IMG/VR virus record: IMGVR_UViG_3300031277_000013
Location: 1-35,025 of that record
Source: a virus
Direction: 5' to 3' (one strand)
Length of the DNA stretch: 35,025 nt
Shown one piece after another: positions 23,823-33,448 of this stretch; within the stretch, counting starts at the first letter, position 1; every line of letters starts with the position of its first letter. The notes beneath the pieces are model-generated. The model was not told the origin of the DNA. It saw only the letters and a program-made list of their open reading frames with translations, and ran no database searches. The position numbers were made by a program, and so were the translations under genes.

Positions 23823-24335
23823 TCAGACCTTACCACGGTTTCGAAGGTTCATTAACATCACTTTTTCGGCAGGATATCTAGCTTGTATCGTCCTACCGAC
23901 CTTGACATACTTGCATGCTCGGATGCCCCACCTGGACAGGGTTTTTCGGGCCGATCCGGGAGTAGATAGGCCAAGATATTCGGCAACCTGTTGTGCCGTC
24001 AACTCTTCACTAAGGATATCGGCGACATCATGTTGTATGATGATGGCGTCCACGTCCACACTGTCGATGGCTTCACGAATCTTATCGTGAATGTTTTCGG
24101 TATAATACCGGTCATCGGCCGGGCCGATCAGCTCGGATCCTGCCAGGACAATATCGTCCGGCAGGGCGGCGGACAGGGCATCGGTGTAGTCCGACACCAT
24201 GTCGTCATACGCTCCGGACAGAACACACAATTCGGAGAATTGTGTGTCTCCGGAGAGATACGACGTGATCACGTCGGACGGGGCGGAAACCCCGGCGTAG
24301 CGGTAGAAAACACCGTACACGGTGGTGCGGGTCAT
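23823..24335 (-). CDS. Helix-turn-helix protein beside the origin region
   Basis: A 170-residue protein. The N-terminal 110 residues are acidic and helical with no recognised motif. The C-terminal part (about 115-165) is a winged HTH-like domain: LTAQQVAEYLGLSTPGSARK followed by a wing (KYVKVGRTIQARYPAEKV), as in MerR/excisionase-type HTH domains. It is transcribed away from the repeat region that begins just upstream of its start, so it is the natural candidate to bind those repeats as replication initiator or autoregulator. ATG 24335 has GGGAG upstream; an earlier in-frame start is less likely. Confidence 0.7.
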   Translation of the reverse strand: MTRTTVYGVFYRYAGVSAPSDVITSYLSGDTQFSELCVLSGAYDDMVSDYTDALSAALPDDIVLAGSELIGPADDRYYTENIHDKIREAIDSVDVDAIIIQHDVADILSEELTAQQVAEYLGLSTPGSARKTLSRWGIRACKYVKVGRTIQARYPAEKVMLMNLRNRGKV

Positions 24336-24421
24336 GCTGACGCTCCCAGCTCGGTGGGCCGTTCTGTTGACACCCACCACTATGCCTCACCTGAGACAGT
24401 GTGTCCAGTCCAGGGGGAAGA

Positions 24422-24467
24422 GCCGGCTACCGGGCCGGCTACCGGGCCGGCTACCGGGCCGGCTACG
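24422..24467. repeat. 12-bp tandem repeat (GCCGGCTACCGG)
   Basis: Three perfect units (24422-24433, 24434-24445, 24446-24457) and a fourth that diverges into GTGGAACC. The GGCTACGTGG ending recurs once more at 24479, showing how this tract grades into the larger repeat family. Confidence 0.85.
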
Positions 24468-24482
24468 TGGAACCTCGCCGGC

Positions 24483-24705
24483 TACGTGGAACCTCGCAGG
24501 TCAGGGGCACAATTCACTCTACGCTTACAGACAACTACGTGTTTGCGCGTAAGCGTACGGTAATCAGCTTCCCGGATCCTACGTGGAACCTCGCAGGTCA
24601 GGGGCACAATTCACTCTACGCTTACAGACAACTACGTGTTTGCGCGTAAGCGTACGGTAATCAGCTTTCCGGATCCTACGTGGAACCTCGCAGGTCAGGG
24701 GCACT
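24483..24705. repeat. 97-bp tandem direct repeat, 2.3 copies, with internal dyad
   Basis: Units start at 24483 and 24580, with a partial third at 24677-24705. The two full units differ at one position near the end. Each starts TACGTGGAACC, carries CGCAGGTCAG, then a dyad TACGCTTAC...GTAAGCGTA (24520-24528 and 24549-24557 in unit one), and ends with TAATCAGC. No gene crosses it. Confidence 0.9.
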
Positions 24706-24775
24706 TTCGTAGTGGAACCGCCCCCGCCCGGCCGATCGATGCCCCAGCTCACCGCCCACAGAACGAAAAAACTCA

Positions 24776-24932
24776 CTATCAGTGTGTGGAACCGACCGGA
24801 ACGTAATCAGCGCAGGTCACGGCAAAACGGGTCACCGCGGGAACATCTCACTGTGAGTAACGGCCATGGTGGGCAGGGCGCGTTGCCGCAGGTCACCGAG
24901 GTCATCATGATGTCGGTTCCACACACTGATAG
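24776..24932. repeat. 21-bp inverted repeat flanking 115 bp
   Basis: The sequence at 24776-24796 (starting CTATCAGTGTGTGG) is exactly inverted at 24912-24932. Each arm is followed within a few bases by the same direct word TAATCAGCGCAGGTCA (from 24804 and 24933). Confidence 0.85.
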
Positions 24933-24996
24933 TAATCAGCGCAGGTCAGAGGAAAAAGTTCCATGTGACCATCGTCAACTGCTAGAAGTGGAACCC

Positions 24997-25296
24997 GATG
25001 TGGAACCGTGCTCTGACCTGCGGTTATACCCCCAAAATCAAGATCAAGTTCCATGTTTCTAGATAGATGTTCACTCATTACGCGTATAGGGGGAAAATTT
25101 GTTGGCAGTAGCGTGATGGTTACGCTACTTTCTGTTATTACCACAGGTCAGGACTGTTGACTACGTACAGTAGGGTAACCGTTACGCTACTGCTAAAAAA
25201 TGTTTTTCCTATAGGGGAAGTAAGTGAGAACCGAGTTCATGGAACTTGATCTTGGTTTTGGGGGTATAACCGCAGGTCAGAGCACGGTTCCACATC
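24997..25296. repeat. 59-bp inverted repeat around a 182-bp AT-rich core
   Basis: 24997-25055 and 25238-25296 are inverted copies with a single mismatch (58 of 59). Each arm carries one CGCAGGTCAG box and a GTTCCAC/GTGGAAC word. Just inside the arms, GTTCACTCATTAC and GTAAGTGAGAAC are also roughly inverted, so the dyad once extended further. The core contains TATAGGGG words and poly-A/T tracts. Confidence 0.9.
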
Positions 25297-25570
25297 CCCA
25301 ATCGGGATCATCCCTATCTGGAACCTCGCAGGTCAGGGCGTTGCAGATGTGGAACCCATGTGGAACCCATGTGGAACCTCGCAGGTCAGGGGCATATCCG
25401 CAGGTCAGAGACGCGACAGGATCGGGGCCGGTCCCCCCATGGCCGTCCGCCGCCCGCCCGGTAGTGCTACAGTGAGGATCACGAGCTAGACGGGGCTGAT
25501 CACCCCGGACGACGCTCACCGCGCCGGGGCAGGTTCGGACTGATCCCCGCACACCCCGGACAGCGGCTAC

Positions 25571-25625
25571 GTCCCCCCCCGTTTTTCCTGTCGGATGCCG
25601 GGGGGGACTCATTTTCTCCGACAGG
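25571..25625 (+). promoter_or_regulatory. Interleaved inverted repeats in the primase leader (possible pseudoknot)
   Basis: GTCCCCCCC (25571-25579) pairs with GGGGGGGAC (25600-25608), and CCTGTCGGA (25587-25595) pairs with TCCGACAGG (25617-25625). The arms interleave (A-B-A'-B'), allowing either two alternative hairpins or a pseudoknot. It ends about 8 bases before the AGGAG ribosome site of the primase, so it may control its translation. Confidence 0.55.
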
Positions 25626-25646
25626 ATGAGACAGGAGCCGGACCTT

Positions 25647-28274
25647 ATGACGACCCGCCCGATAGCCGTAGACGTCGCTCTGTACCTCGCAGACCTCGGC
25701 TACCGGGTCTTCCCCGTCACAATCCAATACCGTGATGACGGGCGGAAAAACACGCATTTTCACGTTTCGTGGGAGCGTGCCGCCCTCGTGCCGACCACCC
25801 CCGGGATGATCCGCACCTGGTGGCGGCAACACCCCGGAGCGTGGCCTGCCATCGCCTGTGGGCCGTCCGGGATCGTCGTCCTGGACTGTGACCGCCACGG
25901 CGGCCCCGATGGTGTGGCGGAGTACCTCACGGCGGCGGGCGGCGAGATCCCGGCCTACACGCTCCCCACCACCACCCGGGGCGAGCACCACTTTTTCACG
26001 GCCGACCCTGACCGGCCCATCCGTCCGGCTCAGGGAGACACGTCGGTCCTCCCTGGAGTGGACGTCCGGGGAGTCGGCGGATGCATCTTCCTCCACCCGT
26101 GCGCGTGGCCCGCCGCGCTCACGCTCCCGGCCCCGGATGACCTAGACCCGGCCCCGTACTGGGTGCATGAGTGGCACAGTGAGCGTGAGCGTGCCCGTGA
26201 GCGAGTCCAGGCCCCCGTGACCGCCGCTCCCGATCGTGAGCGGGTCTTCACCCGGGATCAGGCCGCCGCGTACCTCGCGCGCCACGCCCGCGCACCCCTG
26301 GCTGAATGCGGACAGGGCACGATTAACGCGACCCTCAACGCGGCCGCCGTGGTTGCGGGGCATTTCGTGCCCGGCTACTGGTCGGCGTCCGACGCTACCG
26401 AGTGTCTGATTGCTGCGCAGCGGGACGCCTGGTTGCGCCACGGTGGTGCGGATGATGGTGACTACTCCGCCGCGCACGCGACCATCGCCAGCGGCCTACG
26501 CCACGGCGCGGCTGAGCCGTACACGATCCGTGAGGCACCCGCCGTGACCACGGTGCCCGTCCCGACCGGTATCCGGTCCGCCCTGGACACCGGACAGGAC
26601 GATCCGGAGAGCACCAGCACCGACCTGACAGATTCGCTCACGGCTATTGGTGAGGCCCTGTCCGCCGACGGTGTTACCGGGGCCGTCCGGGCCGTGAGGG
26701 AGGCCGTGACCACTCACTGGGCAGGCGCGGATCTCGCAGAGCGTGCCGGGTTCACGGACACCGTGGTTACGGTCCTGCGGATCCTCGGACGCCGTGAACT
26801 ATCTCGGCTGATCAAACAGGTCGAGGCGGACATTCGGTCGGCTGAGGCGGACGCTGAGCGTACCCGTGCTGAGGCTGAGGGCAGGTGCTTTCCGTCGCCT
26901 CGTGAGCCCTTGAGGGTCGCACGTGAGCTGGTTTCTGCGCTCCCTGTTGCGGATGGTGTTCCGTCTCTTATCCGGTGGCGTGGCGATTGGTACACGTACC
27001 GGCCTGACCTCGGACGGTGGGGCATCACGAGTGCCGAGGATTTCCGGTCCTCCCTCTACCGACGTCTTGAGTATTCGGTCTATGAAACAGAGGACAGAAA
27101 GTCGGGTGAGCGTAAGATGCTCCCGTGGAATCCGACGCGAAAAACGGTCGCCGACCTGTCCGAGGCCCTGGCGTCGTGTGTTTCACGATCGTCCGCAATC
27201 GAGGCGGACCGCATAATCGCATGCCGTAATGGAGTCGTCGATCTAGGCACGCGGGAACTCCTCCCACACACGCCACGGAATTTCAACACGTCGTCCCTGC
27301 CGTACGGGTATGACCCGGGGGCGGACTGCCCGCGTTGGATCGAATTCTTGAATCAGACATTCGGCGGGCAGGGAGAAACGTTCCTGGCCGAATCTCTGCG
27401 AGAGACGCAACAATGGTTCGGGTACGTCATATCCGGGCGTACTGATCAGCAAAAAATTATGCTCATGCTGGGGCCACCCCGGACCGGTAAGGGCACTCTC
27501 CTGCGAGTGCTCACCGCACTTATCGGGCGTGAGAACGTCACGTCACCGACCCTGTCCGGTTTGCTGGGGACATTCGGTGAACAGTCCCTCATTGGCCGGA
27601 CACTGGGGATATTCTCTGACGTCAAATGGTCATTGAGAGACGTCGGTGTCGGGATCGAAAAACTTAAGGCGATTTCGGGTGAGGATACTCGGACAGTCGC
27701 CCGGAAGAATCGTGAGGCATGGGAAGGAACCTTGCCGACCCGTTTCATGATGGTCAGCAATGATGAACCGTCGTTCATCGATGATTCGGGCGCGATGGTC
27801 TCCCGGTTTCTTGTGCTTCGGTTCAATCGTCAGGTCCTCGGACGGGAAGACCCTGGACTCACCGACGCACTACTGTCGGAACTTCCGGGGATTCTGAATT
27901 GGGCCTTAGACGGTCTGGCGGATCTTGAGTCGGAAGGTCGATTTTACGATCCGGCCTACATGGCGAGTGAGCGTCAGGACCTAAGAGCCAGTACATCGAT
28001 CATCGGCGAATTCTTGGATGAGCGAGTGAGCGCGGGTCCGGCGCCGGACGTCCGGATCCGGGTTGATCAGGTGTACGAAGCGTATCGGGCGTGGTCCGAG
28101 GCGGCGGGTGTCCGGCAGCCGCTCACGCGCCGCCGGTTCCTGGCCGATGTCCGAACGGCCCGCCCGGACGTCCGTAAGATCCGGGCGAAAGTCGATGGTG
28201 AGCTGTGCTACGTGTTGTGTGGTCTGGCGGAGTTGTATCCGGGTGCTCTGACAGTACGGCGGTTCGGTGTGTGA
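25647..28274 (+). CDS. Primase-helicase (Prim-Pol plus D5/SF3 helicase)
   Basis: An 875-residue bifunctional replication protein. The N-terminal Prim-Pol domain (about 5-190) shows IVVLDCDRHG with D80 and D82, RGEHHFF, and GVDVRGVGG. A linker and middle region (about 200-480) precede a D5-type superfamily 3 helicase: Walker A GPPRTGKGT (609-617), a Walker B-like FSDVKWS, and the sensor segment RFMMVSNDEPSF. It would make primers and unwind phage DNA at the nearby origin. ATG 25647 with AGGAG upstream is preferred to ATG 25626, which lies right after a stem. The C-terminal helical part resembles a DNA-binding wHTH. Confidence 0.93.
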   Translation: MTTRPIAVDVALYLADLGYRVFPVTIQYRDDGRKNTHFHVSWERAALVPTTPGMIRTWWRQHPGAWPAIACGPSGIVVLDCDRHGGPDGVAEYLTAAGGEIPAYTLPTTTRGEHHFFTADPDRPIRPAQGDTSVLPGVDVRGVGGCIFLHPCAWPAALTLPAPDDLDPAPYWVHEWHSERERARERVQAPVTAAPDRERVFTRDQAAAYLARHARAPLAECGQGTINATLNAAAVVAGHFVPGYWSASDATECLIAAQRDAWLRHGGADDGDYSAAHATIASGLRHGAAEPYTIREAPAVTTVPVPTGIRSALDTGQDDPESTSTDLTDSLTAIGEALSADGVTGAVRAVREAVTTHWAGADLAERAGFTDTVVTVLRILGRRELSRLIKQVEADIRSAEADAERTRAEAEGRCFPSPREPLRVARELVSALPVADGVPSLIRWRGDWYTYRPDLGRWGITSAEDFRSSLYRRLEYSVYETEDRKSGERKMLPWNPTRKTVADLSEALASCVSRSSAIEADRIIACRNGVVDLGTRELLPHTPRNFNTSSLPYGYDPGADCPRWIEFLNQTFGGQGETFLAESLRETQQWFGYVISGRTDQQKIMLMLGPPRTGKGTLLRVLTALIGRENVTSPTLSGLLGTFGEQSLIGRTLGIFSDVKWSLRDVGVGIEKLKAISGEDTRTVARKNREAWEGTLPTRFMMVSNDEPSFIDDSGAMVSRFLVLRFNRQVLGREDPGLTDALLSELPGILNWALDGLADLESEGRFYDPAYMASERQDLRASTSIIGEFLDERVSAGPAPDVRIRVDQVYEAYRAWSEAAGVRQPLTRRRFLADVRTARPDVRKIRAKVDGELCYVLCGLAELYPGALTVRRFGV

Positions 28275-28275
28275 G

Positions 28276-28305
28276 TTGATAGTGAACACCTGTAGGGGGT
28301 AGTGT
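28276..28305 (+). promoter_or_regulatory. Leaderless promoter TTGATA-18-TAGTGT
   Basis: -35 TTGATA (28276-28281), 18 bp, -10 TAGTGT (28300-28305), 7 bases to ATG 28313. AGTGAACACC follows the -35 and AGTGTTCGCA covers the -10. It starts right after the primase stop. Confidence 0.8.
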
Positions 28306-28312
28306 TCGCACC

Positions 28313-28588
28313 ATGAACAACAAAACGACGGAAGCGCAGAAACTCGCCCCGATTTGTCAAAAACTGGGGAGCAACCTTATTGGTGGTGACATCATCGTTC
28401 ATCCAAACGGTGGGGTATTGTTCGAAGTTTTCGGGAAAATCGAATGGTTAACTCGTCCCGGCGTGTGTTCGTACTACAGTTGTCGATTGCTCGGGTCTTG
28501 GGAACAGGGTCCGATGATGGAAAAAACCACTTTTATGAATCTGAATGACACCGACGTGTGTCAGGTGTACCGGCGGACGTGCGATTGA
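28313..28588 (+). CDS. Small protein, first of a duplicated cassette
   Basis: A 91-residue protein closely related to the next gene's product. Both start MNN, share TTEAQKLAP, GSNLI/GSDLI-GGDIIV, WLTRPG-CSYY, and end TDVCQVYRR. No known family is recognised; the Cys residues and aromatic turns suggest a small compact fold. It probably has a leaderless mRNA. A terminator and a CGCAGGTCA box follow, and the whole promoter-gene-terminator unit recurs downstream. Confidence 0.75.
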   Translation: MNNKTTEAQKLAPICQKLGSNLIGGDIIVHPNGGVLFEVFGKIEWLTRPGVCSYYSCRLLGSWEQGPMMEKTTFMNLNDTDVCQVYRRTCD

Positions 28589-28611
28589 CCCGATTGACCA
28601 TTGAACGGATG

Positions 28612-28642
28612 CCCCCTCGACTTTCGGGTCGGGGGGGTTTTT
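28612..28642 (+). terminator. Intrinsic terminator of the first cassette
   Basis: Stem CCCCCTCGAC / GTCGGGGGG followed by TTTTT (28612-28642). An identical sequence recurs at 29048-29078. A CGCAGGTCAA box starts at 28651, just past it. Confidence 0.9.
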
Positions 28643-28690
28643 CGTGTTTCCGCAGGTCAAGGCGTTGCTCCTGGTGTGACACGCCGTAGG

Positions 28691-28720
28691 TAGACAGTGT
28701 GCACAGGATGCTGGTAGTGT
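28691..28720 (+). promoter_or_regulatory. Leaderless promoter TAGACA-18-TAGTGT with twin TGTGCACA boxes
   Basis: -35 TAGACA (28691-28696), 18 bp, -10 TAGTGT (28715-28720), 7 bases to ATG 28728. The word AGTGTGCACA occurs at 28696-28705 and 28716-28725, exactly 20 bp apart. Confidence 0.8.
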
Positions 28721-28727
28721 GCACACC

Positions 28728-29036
28728 ATGAACAACACAGAGGAAACGACAGAAGCGCAGAAGCTCGCTCCCTACGCAAGGGACATCGTTTCGACTTGCC
28801 GCAAGAGAGGGAGCGATCTTATCGACGGTGACATCATCGTCCTGCCTAGCGGCGGGGCATTGTTCGAAATTTCCTGCCAGATTGGATGGCTAACCCGTCC
28901 CGGTGAATGTTCGTACTACGATGGTTGGTCACTTGACAAGTCCGGGTCTCGGGAACGGGATTCTAATCTGGCTCGGGACATTGTCTACCTGCGCGACACT
29001 GACGTGTGTCAGGTGTACCGGCGAGTGCGCGACTGA
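28728..29036 (+). CDS. Small protein, second copy of the duplicated cassette
   Basis: A 102-residue paralogue of the preceding gene's product, 11 residues longer, with insertions near residues 15 and 75 (RDIVSTCRK and SNLARDIVYLR). Conserved core words are TTEAQKLAP, GDIIV, WLTRPGECSYY and DTDVCQVYRR. It is probably leaderless. The function is unknown. The differences between the copies are mostly at the protein level, while promoter and terminator are nearly unchanged, suggesting that the duplication is kept for expression or diversification. Confidence 0.75.
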   Translation: MNNTEETTEAQKLAPYARDIVSTCRKRGSDLIDGDIIVLPSGGALFEISCQIGWLTRPGECSYYDGWSLDKSGSRERDSNLARDIVYLRDTDVCQVYRRVRD

Positions 29037-29047
29037 CAGAACGGATG

Positions 29048-29078
29048 CCCCCTCGACTTTCGGGTCGGGGGGGTTTTT
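29048..29078 (+). terminator. Intrinsic terminator of the second cassette
   Basis: The same stem and T-run as at 28612-28642. CCGCAGGTCAGGGCG follows at 29086-29100. Confidence 0.9.
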
Positions 29079-29128
29079 CGTGTTTCCGCAGGTCAGGGCG
29101 TTGTTCCTGGTGTGACACGCCGTAGGTG

Positions 29129-29158
29129 TAGACAGTGTGCACAGGATGCTGGTAGTGT
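29129..29158 (+). promoter_or_regulatory. Third copy of the cassette promoter, TAGACA-18-TAGTGT
   Basis: -35 TAGACA (29129-29134), 18 bp, -10 TAGTGT (29153-29158). The sequence from the preceding terminator to this promoter nearly repeats that before 28728. Where the earlier copies have ATG 7 bases on, this one has ACA, so the transcript here has a leader of about 65 bases and the gene uses a Shine-Dalgarno site. Confidence 0.8.
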
Positions 29159-29232
29159 TCACACCACAAGGAACGGGAACGAAAAAAGTCCCGATCCGCC
29201 GAACATTCACAAATCAAGAGAGAGGCAAGAAA

Positions 29233-29883
29233 ATGGTCAAGGTCACCATCGATGTCGTTGGCACCGTTGACATCTTCACTAAAGGGCAGGGACCGGTCAC
29301 CCACCTTGTAATAAGAGGGGCGGACGGGCGCTACCTGCCCATCCTGGTGGAGAACGCAACCCCTTACTATGAGCCCCTGCCGGAGATTCCCGGTTCCCTG
29401 ATCGAACATTTGGGGCAGGTCGAATCTGTCCCGACCACGGAACCGGAACCGGAACCGGAACCGGAACCGGAACCGGCTCTTGCACCGCCCCCGGGACCGG
29501 TTCCGGCCTTGAATCCCTGGACACGGCCAATGTCCCCTGCCCCTGCTCCGGCCCCTCGACTCACTGTCGAGCCAGACAAGTATTACGTCTTGGACCGACA
29601 GGACGGGGGAATGGATTTCGTCTTGTCCGTCCTATCTAAGAAAGGGAGACTGTACGGAAGAGTCCTTAAAGAAAATTATTTGTCAGCATCCGGATTTAGG
29701 TTCGAATACGAACCTAGAATCATCGATGAAGTGCAGCGGAGCGGTAGGCTTGCCACCGAACAGGAAATAGGAAAGTTCGGGCGTAGCACCGGTCGGTGCA
29801 TGATCTGTGGGAGGGAACTAACGCACCCCGATTCTGTCGAGAGGGGGATCGGGCCGGACTGTTTGAAAAAATGGTTCGGATGA
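29233..29883 (+). CDS. DUF6011-like zinc protein with Glu-Pro repeat linker
   Basis: A 216-residue protein. Residues 1-65 form a beta-rich domain (KVTIDVVGTVDIF, THLVIRGADGRYLPILV). An extended linker with six Glu-Pro repeats (TTEPEPEPEPEPEPAL) and a Pro/Ala tract spans about 70-115. A second domain (KYYVLDRQDGGMDFVLSVLS) follows. The end is a DUF6011-type zinc knuckle: C189 and C192, then RELTHPDSVERGIGPDC with C210. The knuckle is common in phage and plasmid proteins of uncertain role. ATG 29233 is chosen for its position after GAGAGAGGC. Confidence 0.75.
   Translation: MVKVTIDVVGTVDIFTKGQGPVTHLVIRGADGRYLPILVENATPYYEPLPEIPGSLIEHLGQVESVPTTEPEPEPEPEPEPALAPPPGPVPALNPWTRPMSPAPAPAPRLTVEPDKYYVLDRQDGGMDFVLSVLSKKGRLYGRVLKENYLSASGFRFEYEPRIIDEVQRSGRLATEQEIGKFGRSTGRCMICGRELTHPDSVERGIGPDCLKKWFG
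29439..29475 (+). repeat. Six tandem CCGGAA hexamers encoding (Glu-Pro)n
   Basis: A short in-frame tandem repeat inside the DUF6011-like gene. Copy number could vary between relatives, changing linker length. Confidence 0.85.
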
Positions 29884-29887
29884 TCAG

Positions 29888-29934
29888 CACCCTACCGCAC
29901 CGAGTGGACACGATACACTCGGTGCGGTAGGGTG
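29888..29934 (+). terminator. Hairpin terminator (19-bp perfect stem)
   Basis: The arms at 29888-29906 and 29916-29934 (CACCCTACCGCACCGAGTG and its inverse) have a 9-base loop. There is no T-run. A promoter for the next gene overlaps the stem. Confidence 0.75.
29905..29933 (+). promoter_or_regulatory. Promoter TGGACA-17-TAGGGT inside the terminator stem
   Basis: -35 TGGACA (29905-29910) lies at the loop edge, and -10 TAGGGT (29928-29933) lies in the second arm, 17 bp apart. It would drive the membrane protein gene, the paralogue pair and probably the CRISPR array. Confidence 0.55.
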
Positions 29935-29961
29935 TTCCTACCGACAACGGAAGGAAAAAAA

Positions 29962-30138
29962 ATGACCACCGTGGTGATCGTCTATTTGGCAATTTTCATC
30001 CTGACAATGATAGCTGTTGTCTATGCCGCTACTGCCGTAGTGCTCTTGCATCATCGCTGTATTACAGCGTTTCACTCATTCGTCCTGGCGTTCCTGTCCG
30101 GTGTCCTTGCTATCACTCTGGCAGAAAGGATTATATGA
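29962..30138 (+). CDS. Small two-pass membrane protein
   Basis: A 58-residue hydrophobic protein with segments at about 4-27 (VVIVYLAIFILTMIAVVYAA) and 37-55 (AFHSFVLAFLSGVLAITLA). A strong GGAAGG site and A-rich leader precede ATG 29962. The leader sequence ACGGAAGGAAAAA also precedes the genes at 20460 and 20978. The function is unknown; its stop overlaps no gene but the next start is one base on. Confidence 0.65.
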   Translation: MTTVVIVYLAIFILTMIAVVYAATAVVLLHHRCITAFHSFVLAFLSGVLAITLAERII

Positions 30139-30139
30139 A

Positions 30140-30427
30140 GTGATTAAAATTTTTGTCAATATCAACGAAATTAACAGGAGGATTGTTGCTACTGTCGATA
30201 TTTCTGGTGTTGTTACAATTGAATACGTTGTTACCATTGAGTCGGGAGCTAGGATTTGTAAATATAGATCTGGGCAATTGACGTCAACTGAGTATTTCCC
30301 TAATGCAATGACACTTCATAGCACAGTGGAATCTATGGGAAAGAGTATTGATTACCTGACGTGCATTGTTGCGCAAGTTATCATGCGTGATGACCGCTAC
30401 ATTGAAAGGGAGCAAGAAAATGGCTGA
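30140..30427 (+). CDS. Small protein upstream of the CRISPR array, paralogue 1
   Basis: A 95-residue protein with GTG start at 30140, chosen for GAAAGGA 9 bases upstream. Its pattern of beta strands (IKIFVNINEIN, RIVATVDISG, TIEYVVTIE) then a helix (TLHSTVESMGKSIDYLTCIVAQ) and a terminal IMRDDRY is shared over its length with the next gene's product. No family is recognised. It is AT-rich compared with its surroundings, which may indicate separate origin. Being small, paralogous and next to the array, it is a candidate modulator of host CRISPR-Cas, but this is speculation. Confidence 0.7.
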   Translation: MIKIFVNINEINRRIVATVDISGVVTIEYVVTIESGARICKYRSGQLTSTEYFPNAMTLHSTVESMGKSIDYLTCIVAQVIMRDDRYIEREQENG

Positions 30428-30701
30428 AATTGCTATCGACATTTCGAAAATCAACAGCGAAAAAATTGTTGCTAACGTTGATCTGGCCATATTTAAAAAG
30501 GATGTCGTAACATACACTATCCATGTTAATAATGTTGTTATCGTCCGTTCCGGCCGATGCATAGCTCATGAGTGCTATTCAACTGCTGAAACGCTTCATG
30601 AGACCGTGATGTCTATGCGTGAGAGCAGCGATGGTTTGACCCGCGCCGTCGCACGGGCAGTGCTGAGTGATCAGCGCTACGTCTCTCGGGTCATGACATA
30701 A
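30420..30701 (+). CDS. Small protein upstream of the CRISPR array, paralogue 2
   Basis: A 93-residue paralogue of the preceding product: AIDISKINSEKIVANVDLAI aligns with its NINEINRRIVATVDISGV, and TLHETVMSMRESSDGLTRAV and VLSDQRY align with its C-terminal half. It overlaps the previous gene by 8 bases (ATGGCTGA), with AAAGGGAG upstream of ATG 30420. Its stop is only 18 bases before the first CRISPR repeat, with no terminator between, so the array is likely read from the same transcript. The function is unknown. Confidence 0.75.
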   Translation: MAEIAIDISKINSEKIVANVDLAIFKKDVVTYTIHVNNVVIVRSGRCIAHECYSTAETLHETVMSMRESSDGLTRAVARAVLSDQRYVSRVMT

Positions 30702-30719
30702 ACTAGCAGCTCAATAAGT

Positions 30720-30930
30720 GTGTTCCCCGCGCACGCGGGGGTGATCCCGAAACCGTCGATGATGTCTCTTGCCGCGCCCAGTGTTCCCCGCGCACGCGGG
30801 GGTGATCCTTCCTGCGGGCGCCGCCCGGGTGCCCATCGGCCGTGTTCCCCGCGCACGCGGGGGTGATCCGGGCTGTTCCACGTGAAACACGCCGGATGAT
30901 GAGTGTTCCCCGCGCACGCGGGGGTGACCT
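30720..30930 (+). CRISPR. Compact type I-E CRISPR array: 4 repeats, 3 spacers, no cas genes
   Basis: Repeats of 28 bp start at 30720, 30781, 30842 and 30903, exactly 61 bp apart; spacers are 33 bp (30748-30780, 30809-30841, 30870-30902). The repeat starts GTGTTCCCCGCGCACG, contains the CCCCGC/GCGGGG stem and ends GTGATCC, as in type I-E repeats of Actinobacteria. The first three are identical. The last has two changes in its final three bases, marking the leader-distal end at the right, so crRNA would be read rightward. There is almost no leader (18 bp after a stop codon). No cas gene is in the window, so processing and interference would need host Cas proteins. By eye no spacer matches this window. 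Confidence 0.93.
30874..30889. promoter_or_regulatory. parS-like site inside the third CRISPR spacer
   Basis: TGTTCCACGTGAAACA matches the bacterial parS consensus TGTTTCACGTGAAACA at 15 of 16 bases. It lies within spacer 3 (30870-30902), so it may be copied from the genome that the spacer targets. Confidence 0.7.
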
Positions 30931-30946
30931 AGTTTCACGTGAAACA
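30931..30946. promoter_or_regulatory. parS site directly after the last CRISPR repeat
   Basis: AGTTTCACGTGAAACA contains the full 14-bp parS palindrome GTTTCACGTGAAAC (30932-30945). Host ParB (Spo0J) would be expected to bind it. It abuts the final repeat and lies 45 bp before the promoter at 30992. Confidence 0.75.
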
Positions 30947-30991
30947 GGGTGATGATTCCACCGGGTTATAAAAAACAACCCACAACCCGAG

Positions 30992-31020
30992 TAGACACGG
31001 TCTACCTGACGTGGTACGGT
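30992..31020 (+). promoter_or_regulatory. Leaderless promoter TAGACA-17-TACGGT
   Basis: -35 TAGACA (30992-30997), 17 bp, -10 TACGGT (31015-31020), 6 bases to ATG 31027. GGTCTACC and GGTAGACC words form an inverted pair across the -35 to -10 region. Confidence 0.7.
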
Positions 31021-31026
31021 AGACCC

Positions 31027-31374
31027 ATGACAACAGAACAGGGACAGAAACTAGCGGTCGCAATTGCACTGGTCGCCAATAAGTACGGATATCACCTTCT
31101 GGCGGCGATGACCATGCCTCAGTACCAGGGATGGGGCGGAACTGACGAAGAATTCTTCGTCAACGTCAGGAACTGGATTCGGAGAATCCCAAACGATGAA
31201 GCGGTCGAGGGACTGGACTTGGTGAGCATGGCTCTCAATACCGTCCTGGCGGCAGTGAAAGCAGGAGCGAAATCCGCAGACGCCTATGGTGAGGCAACAG
31301 AAATGATCCGAGAAATTTCGGACAGTGACGCTGATCCAATCTTACGAGGGGCGAAATTCCGTCCCTACCCCTGA
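31027..31374 (+). CDS. Protein of unknown function downstream of the CRISPR array
   Basis: A 115-residue helical protein (GQKLAVAIALVANKYGYHLL, DEEFFVNVRNWIRRI, LVSMALNTVLAAVKAGAK, AYGEATEMIREISDSD). There is no membrane segment long enough to be certain and no known motif. The start is fixed by the leaderless promoter; the longer in-frame start at 30949 lies in the parS region and is rejected. A strong terminator follows, so it is a single-gene unit. Confidence 0.7.
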   Translation: MTTEQGQKLAVAIALVANKYGYHLLAAMTMPQYQGWGGTDEEFFVNVRNWIRRIPNDEAVEGLDLVSMALNTVLAAVKAGAKSADAYGEATEMIREISDSDADPILRGAKFRPYP

Positions 31375-32456: not shown

Positions 32457-32861
32457 ATGGCAAGAAAACCGGAATGTGTCGATTGTATTGCTGAAGGCAA
32501 CACGCGGTGGCGTCCCACGGACGGCGCTCCCCGCCGCCCGCGCTGCGCCACCCACGCCCGAGCACACCGGCGCTCGCAAGCACGCGCGCAACGCGCGAAA
32601 CGCCTTGAACGCATCTACGGCGTCACCCCCGAACAGGAAAACGCCTACCGGGCACGGTACGGTCACCTATGCATCATCTGTGGTGCCGTGACAGGGCACC
32701 ATGGCCGATGTCTTGACCACGATCACGAAACCGGGGCACCACGGGGGTTTCTGTGCCACACCTGTAATCGGTTGCTCGGAGAGTGGCGCGAGGATCCGGC
32801 AATTTTCGCCCGCGCGATCCGGTACCTACGGCATCCCCCGTTCGACTTCCTCGACAAATAG
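32457..32861 (+). CDS. Recombination endonuclease VII-like nuclease
   Basis: A 134-residue Holliday-junction-type nuclease of the T4 endonuclease VII family. The basic N-terminal part has an extra CVDC knuckle. The conserved core is YGVTPEQENAY, then C72-I-I-C75, LDHDHETGAPRGFLC with D87 and H88, and C100-H-T-C103-N104, followed by the helix LLGEWREDP. The four cysteines bind structural zinc, and the D-H-N set forms the active site. It would resolve branched DNA before packaging. Confidence 0.9.
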   Translation: MARKPECVDCIAEGNTRWRPTDGAPRRPRCATHARAHRRSQARAQRAKRLERIYGVTPEQENAYRARYGHLCIICGAVTGHHGRCLDHDHETGAPRGFLCHTCNRLLGEWREDPAIFARAIRYLRHPPFDFLDK

Positions 32862-32877: not shown

Positions 32878-33174
32878 ATGGAAAACAAAAAGAAAGAGGA
32901 AGTTGTCAAGGCGGCCATAGGGTCCCTCTCAGAGAGTGAGCTTGCGCGAATTCTCCCGGAAGGATGGGTGAATACTCGTAATCTAGTAACACACAGAATG
33001 CTCTACGAAGAATTCTTCGAACCTTACGGGCTCACGAAGCAATTGCTTTCCGCGAGATTCCGGCGGGGAATCTACGATATCGAACCGGTAGTTAAGGTCC
33101 CGGGAGCCACTCTGTACAACAGGGAGGAATTCGAAGTTGTTCATACCGCTTACGAGAGGTCACTAAATGGATAG
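32878..33174 (+). CDS. Possible DNA-binding protein
   Basis: A 98-residue charged protein (MENKKKEEVVKAAIGSLSES start). The middle LLSARFRRGIYDIEPVVKVPG with the following TLYNREEFE resembles an excisionase or MerR-type winged HTH, in which residues select a DNA-binding site, but the match is weak. It is leaderless by promoter position and overlaps the HNH gene by 8 bases. It may regulate or direct the nuclease. Confidence 0.6.
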   Translation: MENKKKEEVVKAAIGSLSESELARILPEGWVNTRNLVTHRMLYEEFFEPYGLTKQLLSARFRRGIYDIEPVVKVPGATLYNREEFEVVHTAYERSLNG

Positions 33175-33448
33175 GCCAGAATTGGAATCTACGGCCTACC
33201 GTAAGGCCAAGGTTCGTACTCTTGCACAGAACGACATCTGCCATCTCTGCGGGCACCCGAGAGCCGATTCCCTTGACCACATCATTCCGGTGTCCCGAGG
33301 CGGACATCCCACGGATCCGGCTAACCTTGCTCCGATCCATGGTCACCCCTGCCCAACCTGCGGACAGAAATGCAACGCCATAAAATCCGACAAACTGTTG
33401 TCGGAAATGGTTGATCCTAAAAACTCTAGAGATTGGTGGATAAGATGA
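33167..33448 (+). CDS. HNH endonuclease
   Basis: A 93-residue HNH nuclease: C25-H-L-C28, DHIIPVSRGG with D37 and H38, NLAPIHG with N53, and C62/C65 with N70 in the second knuckle. Two zinc knuckles flank the H-N-H core, as in the small HNH proteins that sit near terminase genes and help cutting at cos or headful packaging. Its place close to the right end, with the terminase at the left end, is consistent with such a role if the ends meet. It overlaps the previous gene by 8 bases. Confidence 0.9.
   Translation: MDRPELESTAYRKAKVRTLAQNDICHLCGHPRADSLDHIIPVSRGGHPTDPANLAPIHGHPCPTCGQKCNAIKSDKLLSEMVDPKNSRDWWIR

Follow-up and report, generated by a model that had tools for sequence, protein, structure and literature searches.

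The 300-bp inverted repeat described here most probably forms the core of a phage replication origin that is bound by its initiator and resembles those of the PICI/SaPI elements, a reading to which we give a probability of about 0.8 from sequence and predicted structure. The source is an uncultured actinobacterial phage, and "the window" denotes the whole stretch of 35,025 nucleotides that was analysed. The repeat had been called origin-like in an earlier note on this DNA, and that description is now well supported, because the dyad lies in an iteron array next to a gene for a SaPI5/D5-type initiator, and many relatives of this gene are accompanied by an inverted-iteron layout. The anatomy of the region, the domain make-up of the protein and the recurrence of the layout in relatives are the observed parts of this case.

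Anatomy of the dyad and its iteron array

The dyad lies within a noncoding region between divergent genes, whose features are as follows (dot, no strand assigned):

24463..25411, dot: noncoding iteron array between divergent genes, 0.95 kb, putative origin/regulatory region
24482..24675, plus: 97-bp tandem duplication, with A+B plus a short dyad in each unit
24775..24933, dot: second, smaller dyad with 22-bp perfect arms 115 bp apart and an A site in each
24997..25055, plus: left arm, with an A site (25001, plus), a B box (25014, minus) and the A-variant ATGGAACTT (25046, minus)
25056..25237, dot: AT-richer core, a palindrome that has diverged and has a B box at its centre (25144-25150)
25107..25129, dot: 23-bp internal dyad AGTAGSGTRAYSGTTACGCTACT, copy 1
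25169..25191, dot: 23-bp internal dyad AGTAGSGTRAYSGTTACGCTACT, copy 2
25238..25296, minus: right arm, with an A-variant (25239, plus), a B box (25273, plus) and an A site (25286, minus)
25319..25410, plus: right-hand iterons, A at 25319, 25350, 25361 and 25372, B at 25329, 25382 and 25401
28645..28668, plus: solitary B element (GTTTCCGCAGGTCAAGGCGTTG...), intergenic, 3′ of the primase gene
29081..29104, plus: solitary B element (GTTTCCGCAGGTCAGGGCGTTG...), intergenic, 3′ of the primase gene

The dimensions given earlier for the dyad were reproduced at the same coordinates: arms of 59 nt each (24997-25055 and 25238-25296), complementary at 58 positions and separated by 182 nt of AT-rich DNA. 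The lone mismatch is T25038, where a C would pair with the opposite arm, and the longest uninterrupted exact match between the arms is 41 bp. At arm distances of up to 700 bp the window contains no longer inverted repeat, and the next in length (pairing of at least 88%) measures 22 bp. As single-stranded DNA, positions 24990-25303 fold at -107 kcal/mol, against -33.7 ± 3.9 for shuffled sequences (z = -18.8). The rarity claimed for such arms was also confirmed, as just one of the 118 regions examined 3′ of related genes has 40 or more matched arm bases.

With a GC content of 42% versus 56% for the window, the core falls in about the lowest 2% of 182-bp stretches and is presumed to be the melting region. 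The short dyads that the earlier note had seen within it are the 23-bp sequence AGTAGSGTRAYSGTTACGCTACT, present twice. Moreover, the core has an inverted symmetry of its own (25071-25129 against 25169-25227, 76%), with a self-alignment score of 32, the highest among 1000 shuffles being 18. Since a diverged palindrome thus continues through the core, the whole 300 bp is one old inverted duplication, whose outer 59 bp remained near-identical while the inner part drifted. The assertion that the arms must be maintained thus holds in part: they are still 98% alike while the core has fallen to about 76%, and selection or conversion may have acted on them.

The earlier note did not mention what the arms are made of, namely sites that recur across the 0.95-kb array. 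The heptamer A (TGGAACC) occurs 14 times in 24463-25411 versus twice in the rest of the window (P 4e-16), and B (CAGGTCA) 12 times versus seven (P 3e-13). Both are often joined in the unit TGGAACCTCGCAGGTCAGGG, found five times, and the A sites at 25350, 25361 and 25372 follow each other in 11-bp steps. In the window 3′ of the primase gene, B is present only as the two solitary elements. No clear switch in GC skew or strand composition was seen at the dyad, an Rfam scan of 24300-31100 gave nothing relevant, and no nucleotide relatives of 24400-28300 were found among phages. Three exact matches in IMG/VR to the 18-mer TGGAACCTCGCAGGTCAG lacked a surrounding iteron array and were judged to be chance.

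Other repeats occur further to the right. Positions 28553-29158 form a tandemly duplicated module of gene end, terminator-like hairpin, solitary B element and leader, and hexamer repeats of the CGGAAC type lie at 29438-29476 within the ORF 29137-29883 (DUF6011). A CRISPR-like array at 30720-30927, type I-E-like by eye, comprises four copies of GTGTTCCCCGCGCACGCGGGGGTGATCC (the last one diverged) in 61-bp steps with 33-bp spacers; no cas gene was recognised, the repeat was not found in exact form either in IMG/VR or among 395 genomes from a single actinobacterial class, and its spacers have no convincing target in phages. Two near-perfect parS-like sites, one inside the third spacer (30874-30889) and the other just past the array (30931-30946), each differ by one mismatch from TGTTTCACGTGAAACA, which we take to be the parS consensus; 0.13 matches were expected in a search at up to three mismatches. 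No par gene was recognised among the window proteins scanned, and the phage might borrow the ParB of its host through these sites.

The primase-helicase and its relatives

Two genes of the window bear on the function of the dyad:

25626..28274, plus: Prim-Pol, D5_N/DUF5906 helicase and RFX-type winged helix, 882 aa, presumed initiator
32457..32861, plus: endonuclease VII family (Holliday-junction type)

The 882-aa protein has Prim-Pol (AEP type, PF09250), D5_N and DUF5906 domains, and a profile combining it with 17 relatives hits the SaPI5 primase-helicase (7OLA) with an E value of 2.8e-19. Its modelled full-length structure (mean pLDDT 68, with most values at 70-95 between about residues 390 and 870) matches 7OLA as well, with a TM score of 0.59-0.64 normalised by target length, together with poxvirus D5/E5, NrS-1 and AsfvPrimPol. 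The C-terminal 118 residues are modelled (pLDDT 77) as a winged helix nearest to RFX DNA-binding domains (8zjr, 1dp7), and the sequence profile of this end likewise indicates a winged helix of the RFX type. To the left of the array, the opposite strand carries genes including a helicase and an exonuclease. No rolling-circle Rep nickase family was detected among the proteins scanned, which were a subset of the ORFs.

Single-protein scans of IMG/VR with the primase or the terminase gave no match. An alignment-based scan for the primase-helicase family provided 42 IMG/VR loci and 80 kept loci from actinobacterial genomes, in phages, plasmids and integrated elements. These relatives are mostly 36-44% identical in their best segment, a few being more distant, and the closest does not exceed about 44% in its best primase segment. 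A frequent layout among them consists of lineage-specific iterons, B boxes, an AT-richer core and inverted iterons. Strong inverted 8-mer layouts, scored in the 500 bp 3′ of the gene at a threshold passed by 5.6% of other stretches and 0.6% of shuffles, were found in 34 of 107 loci and show a GC dip at their centre; about two thirds of the relatives stay below this threshold in those 500 bp. The iterons differ between lineages (GTTCAGGG, CCCTGCAAC, TGTCCCGCTG, GGGCCCCGCC, TGGACCGGGT) and often follow 9-12-bp steps. The box GCAGGTCAG, as defined in the window, has 35 matches 3′ of the gene, spread over 24 of the 40 loci of the first set; 60 permuted motifs gave on average 6.7 matches in 5.9 loci and at most 22 in 19. 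The signal is weaker in the genome set, with B 3′ of the primase in 24 of 69 loci and some permuted motifs scoring higher.

The position of the array counts against the origin reading, since it lies 5′ of the initiator gene and the strong layouts of relatives lie 3′: among 35 full-length relatives, 15 have a strong layout 3′ and none has one 5′, whereas in the window the 3′ region scores 3 and the 5′ stretch 24900-25400 scores 71.

Work on SaPIs and PICIs (PMC6092414, PMC7581432), including the binding of iterons by SaPI Rep and the related Cch2 through their C-terminal domain (PMC7581432), served as the model for the mechanism that we propose. The primase-helicase (prim-pol and D5/SF3 helicase) would bind the A iterons of the array and of both arms through its C-terminal winged helix, and two oppositely oriented assemblies, presumably hexamers, would be loaded head-to-head on the mirror arms. 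These assemblies would then melt the AT-rich core, prime synthesis and depart in both directions. The B box of the arms would be another conserved part of the origin, probably serving as an accessory site or as one for a host factor.

The main rival is a structure-driven start, in which the prim-pol/helicase recognises an extruded stem-loop and not sites in the arms. It could find a precedent in the crenarchaeal plasmid pRN1, whose initiator has the same three protein parts and whose stem must be intact for replication (PMC4234260), and the extreme single-stranded fold of the dyad would suit it. However, the pRN1 origin has no iterons, whereas the arms of our dyad are built of sites repeated through the array, and arms in relatives, for example in locus L014, are tandem iterons. 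We therefore consider such a start unlikely as the sole explanation, although it could operate together with an initiator-bound one.

The B box outside this primase family and other readings of the dyad

The origin reading is also weakened by the occurrence of B, singly or clustered, away from the primase family of the window. Inverted B pairs number 61 and 59 in IMG/VR for the two orientations, versus 17 for a scrambled control, and most of these loci have no primase of this family in the locus DNA examined. The sequence TTTYCGCAGGTCAG has 39 sites in 8 actinobacterial genomes (none for the reversed control); these sites, together with clusters of 5-11 boxes in other phages, rule out B as an element exclusive to this family. 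Such clusters of GCAGGTCAG are seen in the phage loci L067 (4292-4720), L069 (8766-9574), L094 (509-1114) and L240 (110-689), and likewise in L252, L268 and L276. In L067, L094 and L240 the boxes are arranged as head-to-head pairs about 35 bp apart (CTGACCTGCRCGTTT...AAACGTGCAGGTCAG), and the clusters of L276 and L069 also contain sites such as TGTGACGCAGGTCACA, which presumably resemble operators of the Crp/GlxR type. Several phages have B pairs or clusters in the vicinity of integrase, portal or terminase genes. No paper was found in which the B sequence is described as functional; in phage phiJoe, CCGTTCCCGCAGGTCAGAGC lies within the forward primer for the int-attP region (PMC5311408).

As judged from these occurrences, B is a recurrent element that alone is no proof of an origin. 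A tentative and rather doubtful extension is that B ([TTT/AAA]NCGCAGGTCAGAGC) represents a cis element not yet described, which belongs to phages and mobile elements of actinobacteria and is read by a host factor common to unrelated initiators and iterons. If true, the dyad would be one case of a general rule, in which a lineage-specific initiator iteron is combined with a universal host-read box.

The same distribution of B bears on a purely regulatory reading, where A and B would be operators of divergent operons and replication would begin elsewhere. The array does lie between divergent genes, solitary intergenic B elements occur at 28651 and 29087, and B is found in many actinobacterial places. 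This reading is nevertheless improbable, as mirror arms and an AT-rich core recur in relatives beside an initiator of the self-loading type, no second stretch of the window with a similar layout was found, and neither a repressor nor an integrase was recognised among the window proteins scanned.

Still much less probable is a site of recombination, resolution or packaging, for which one could invoke the B clusters and pairs near integrase, portal or terminase genes of other phages, as well as the endonuclease VII gene, whose product could act on a cruciform of the dyad. No recombinase gene was recognised adjoining the dyad, no sequence evidence for a resolution site was found there, and the terminase (333-1988) and HNH (33167-33448) genes are remote from the dyad, at the ends of the contig. 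Finally, an assembly or amplification artefact, conceivable for a palindrome seen once on a single virus contig, can hardly be credited, since it should have left uniform divergence, yet the core is about 76% and the outer arms 98% alike, and comparable dyads occur in independent relatives from named genomes.

Comparison with known systems

The closest parallel to the proposed initiator-bound origin is found in the PICIs, in whose origins an AT-rich region is invariably flanked by two sets of iterons (PMC6092414). The window shares with PICI/SaPI elements such two sets (PMC6092414, PMC7581432) and, as in the SaPI5 Pri-Rep, a D5-family primase-helicase with a C-terminal DNA-binding domain, here a predicted winged helix; both thus have an initiator with a D5/SF3 helicase, to which an AEP primase is often joined in PICI/SaPI-type systems. 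Unlike these elements, the dyad has near-perfect 59-bp arms and an additional B box. In PICI/SaPI elements rep and ori together drive a plasmid and the origin directly follows the 3′ end of rep, and PICIs are satellites that depend on a helper for capsid and tail, whereas the layout of the window lies 5′ of the gene and the window itself encodes terminase, portal, capsid and tail proteins. By this comparison, the dyad would work like a PICI/SaPI-type origin and is not a canonical member of the class, because of its 5′ position and because the element is a full phage.

Plasmid pRN1, with its ORF904 protein, is similar in combining prim-pol, SF3 helicase and winged helix with a large inverted repeat required in cis (PMC4234260), and the dyad is likewise a large inverted repeat able to fold as a stem-loop. 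It differs in that the pRN1 origin has no iterons and its stem-loop lies 3′ of the gene. The alpha protein of phage P4 is also an initiator with helicase, primase and a winged-helix origin-binding domain that recognises repeats (PMC4234260), but its primase is of the Toprim type, whereas that of the window is a Prim-Pol (AEP, PF09250).

Chromosomal elements of Streptomyces and Dactylosporangium with a homologous primase-helicase carry the order iteron, B(-), core, B(+), inverted iteron. The closest layout is that of Streptomyces sp. H27-H1 (L183), with 43-bp arms that are 95% complementary and arranged as iteron-iteron-B, and S. olivochromogenes (L155) has the element order of the window as well; Dactylosporangium roseum (L114) is a partial match, its right-hand box being degenerate and in the opposite orientation. 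All three differ from the window in iteron sequence, in their shorter arms and in their 3′ position, and no literature describing these regions as origins was found.

The layout of inverted iterons has been regarded as exclusive to PICIs, being present in "no other known bacterial replicon" (PMC6092414). The present analysis extends it to an actinobacterial phage, to plasmids and to dozens of chromosomal loci, and it is therefore more likely to be a property of the self-loading primase-helicase family. This provides pairs of variable iteron and winged helix that can be tested, could supply actinobacterial vectors with origins, and points to a second conserved box for which a binding factor can be looked for.
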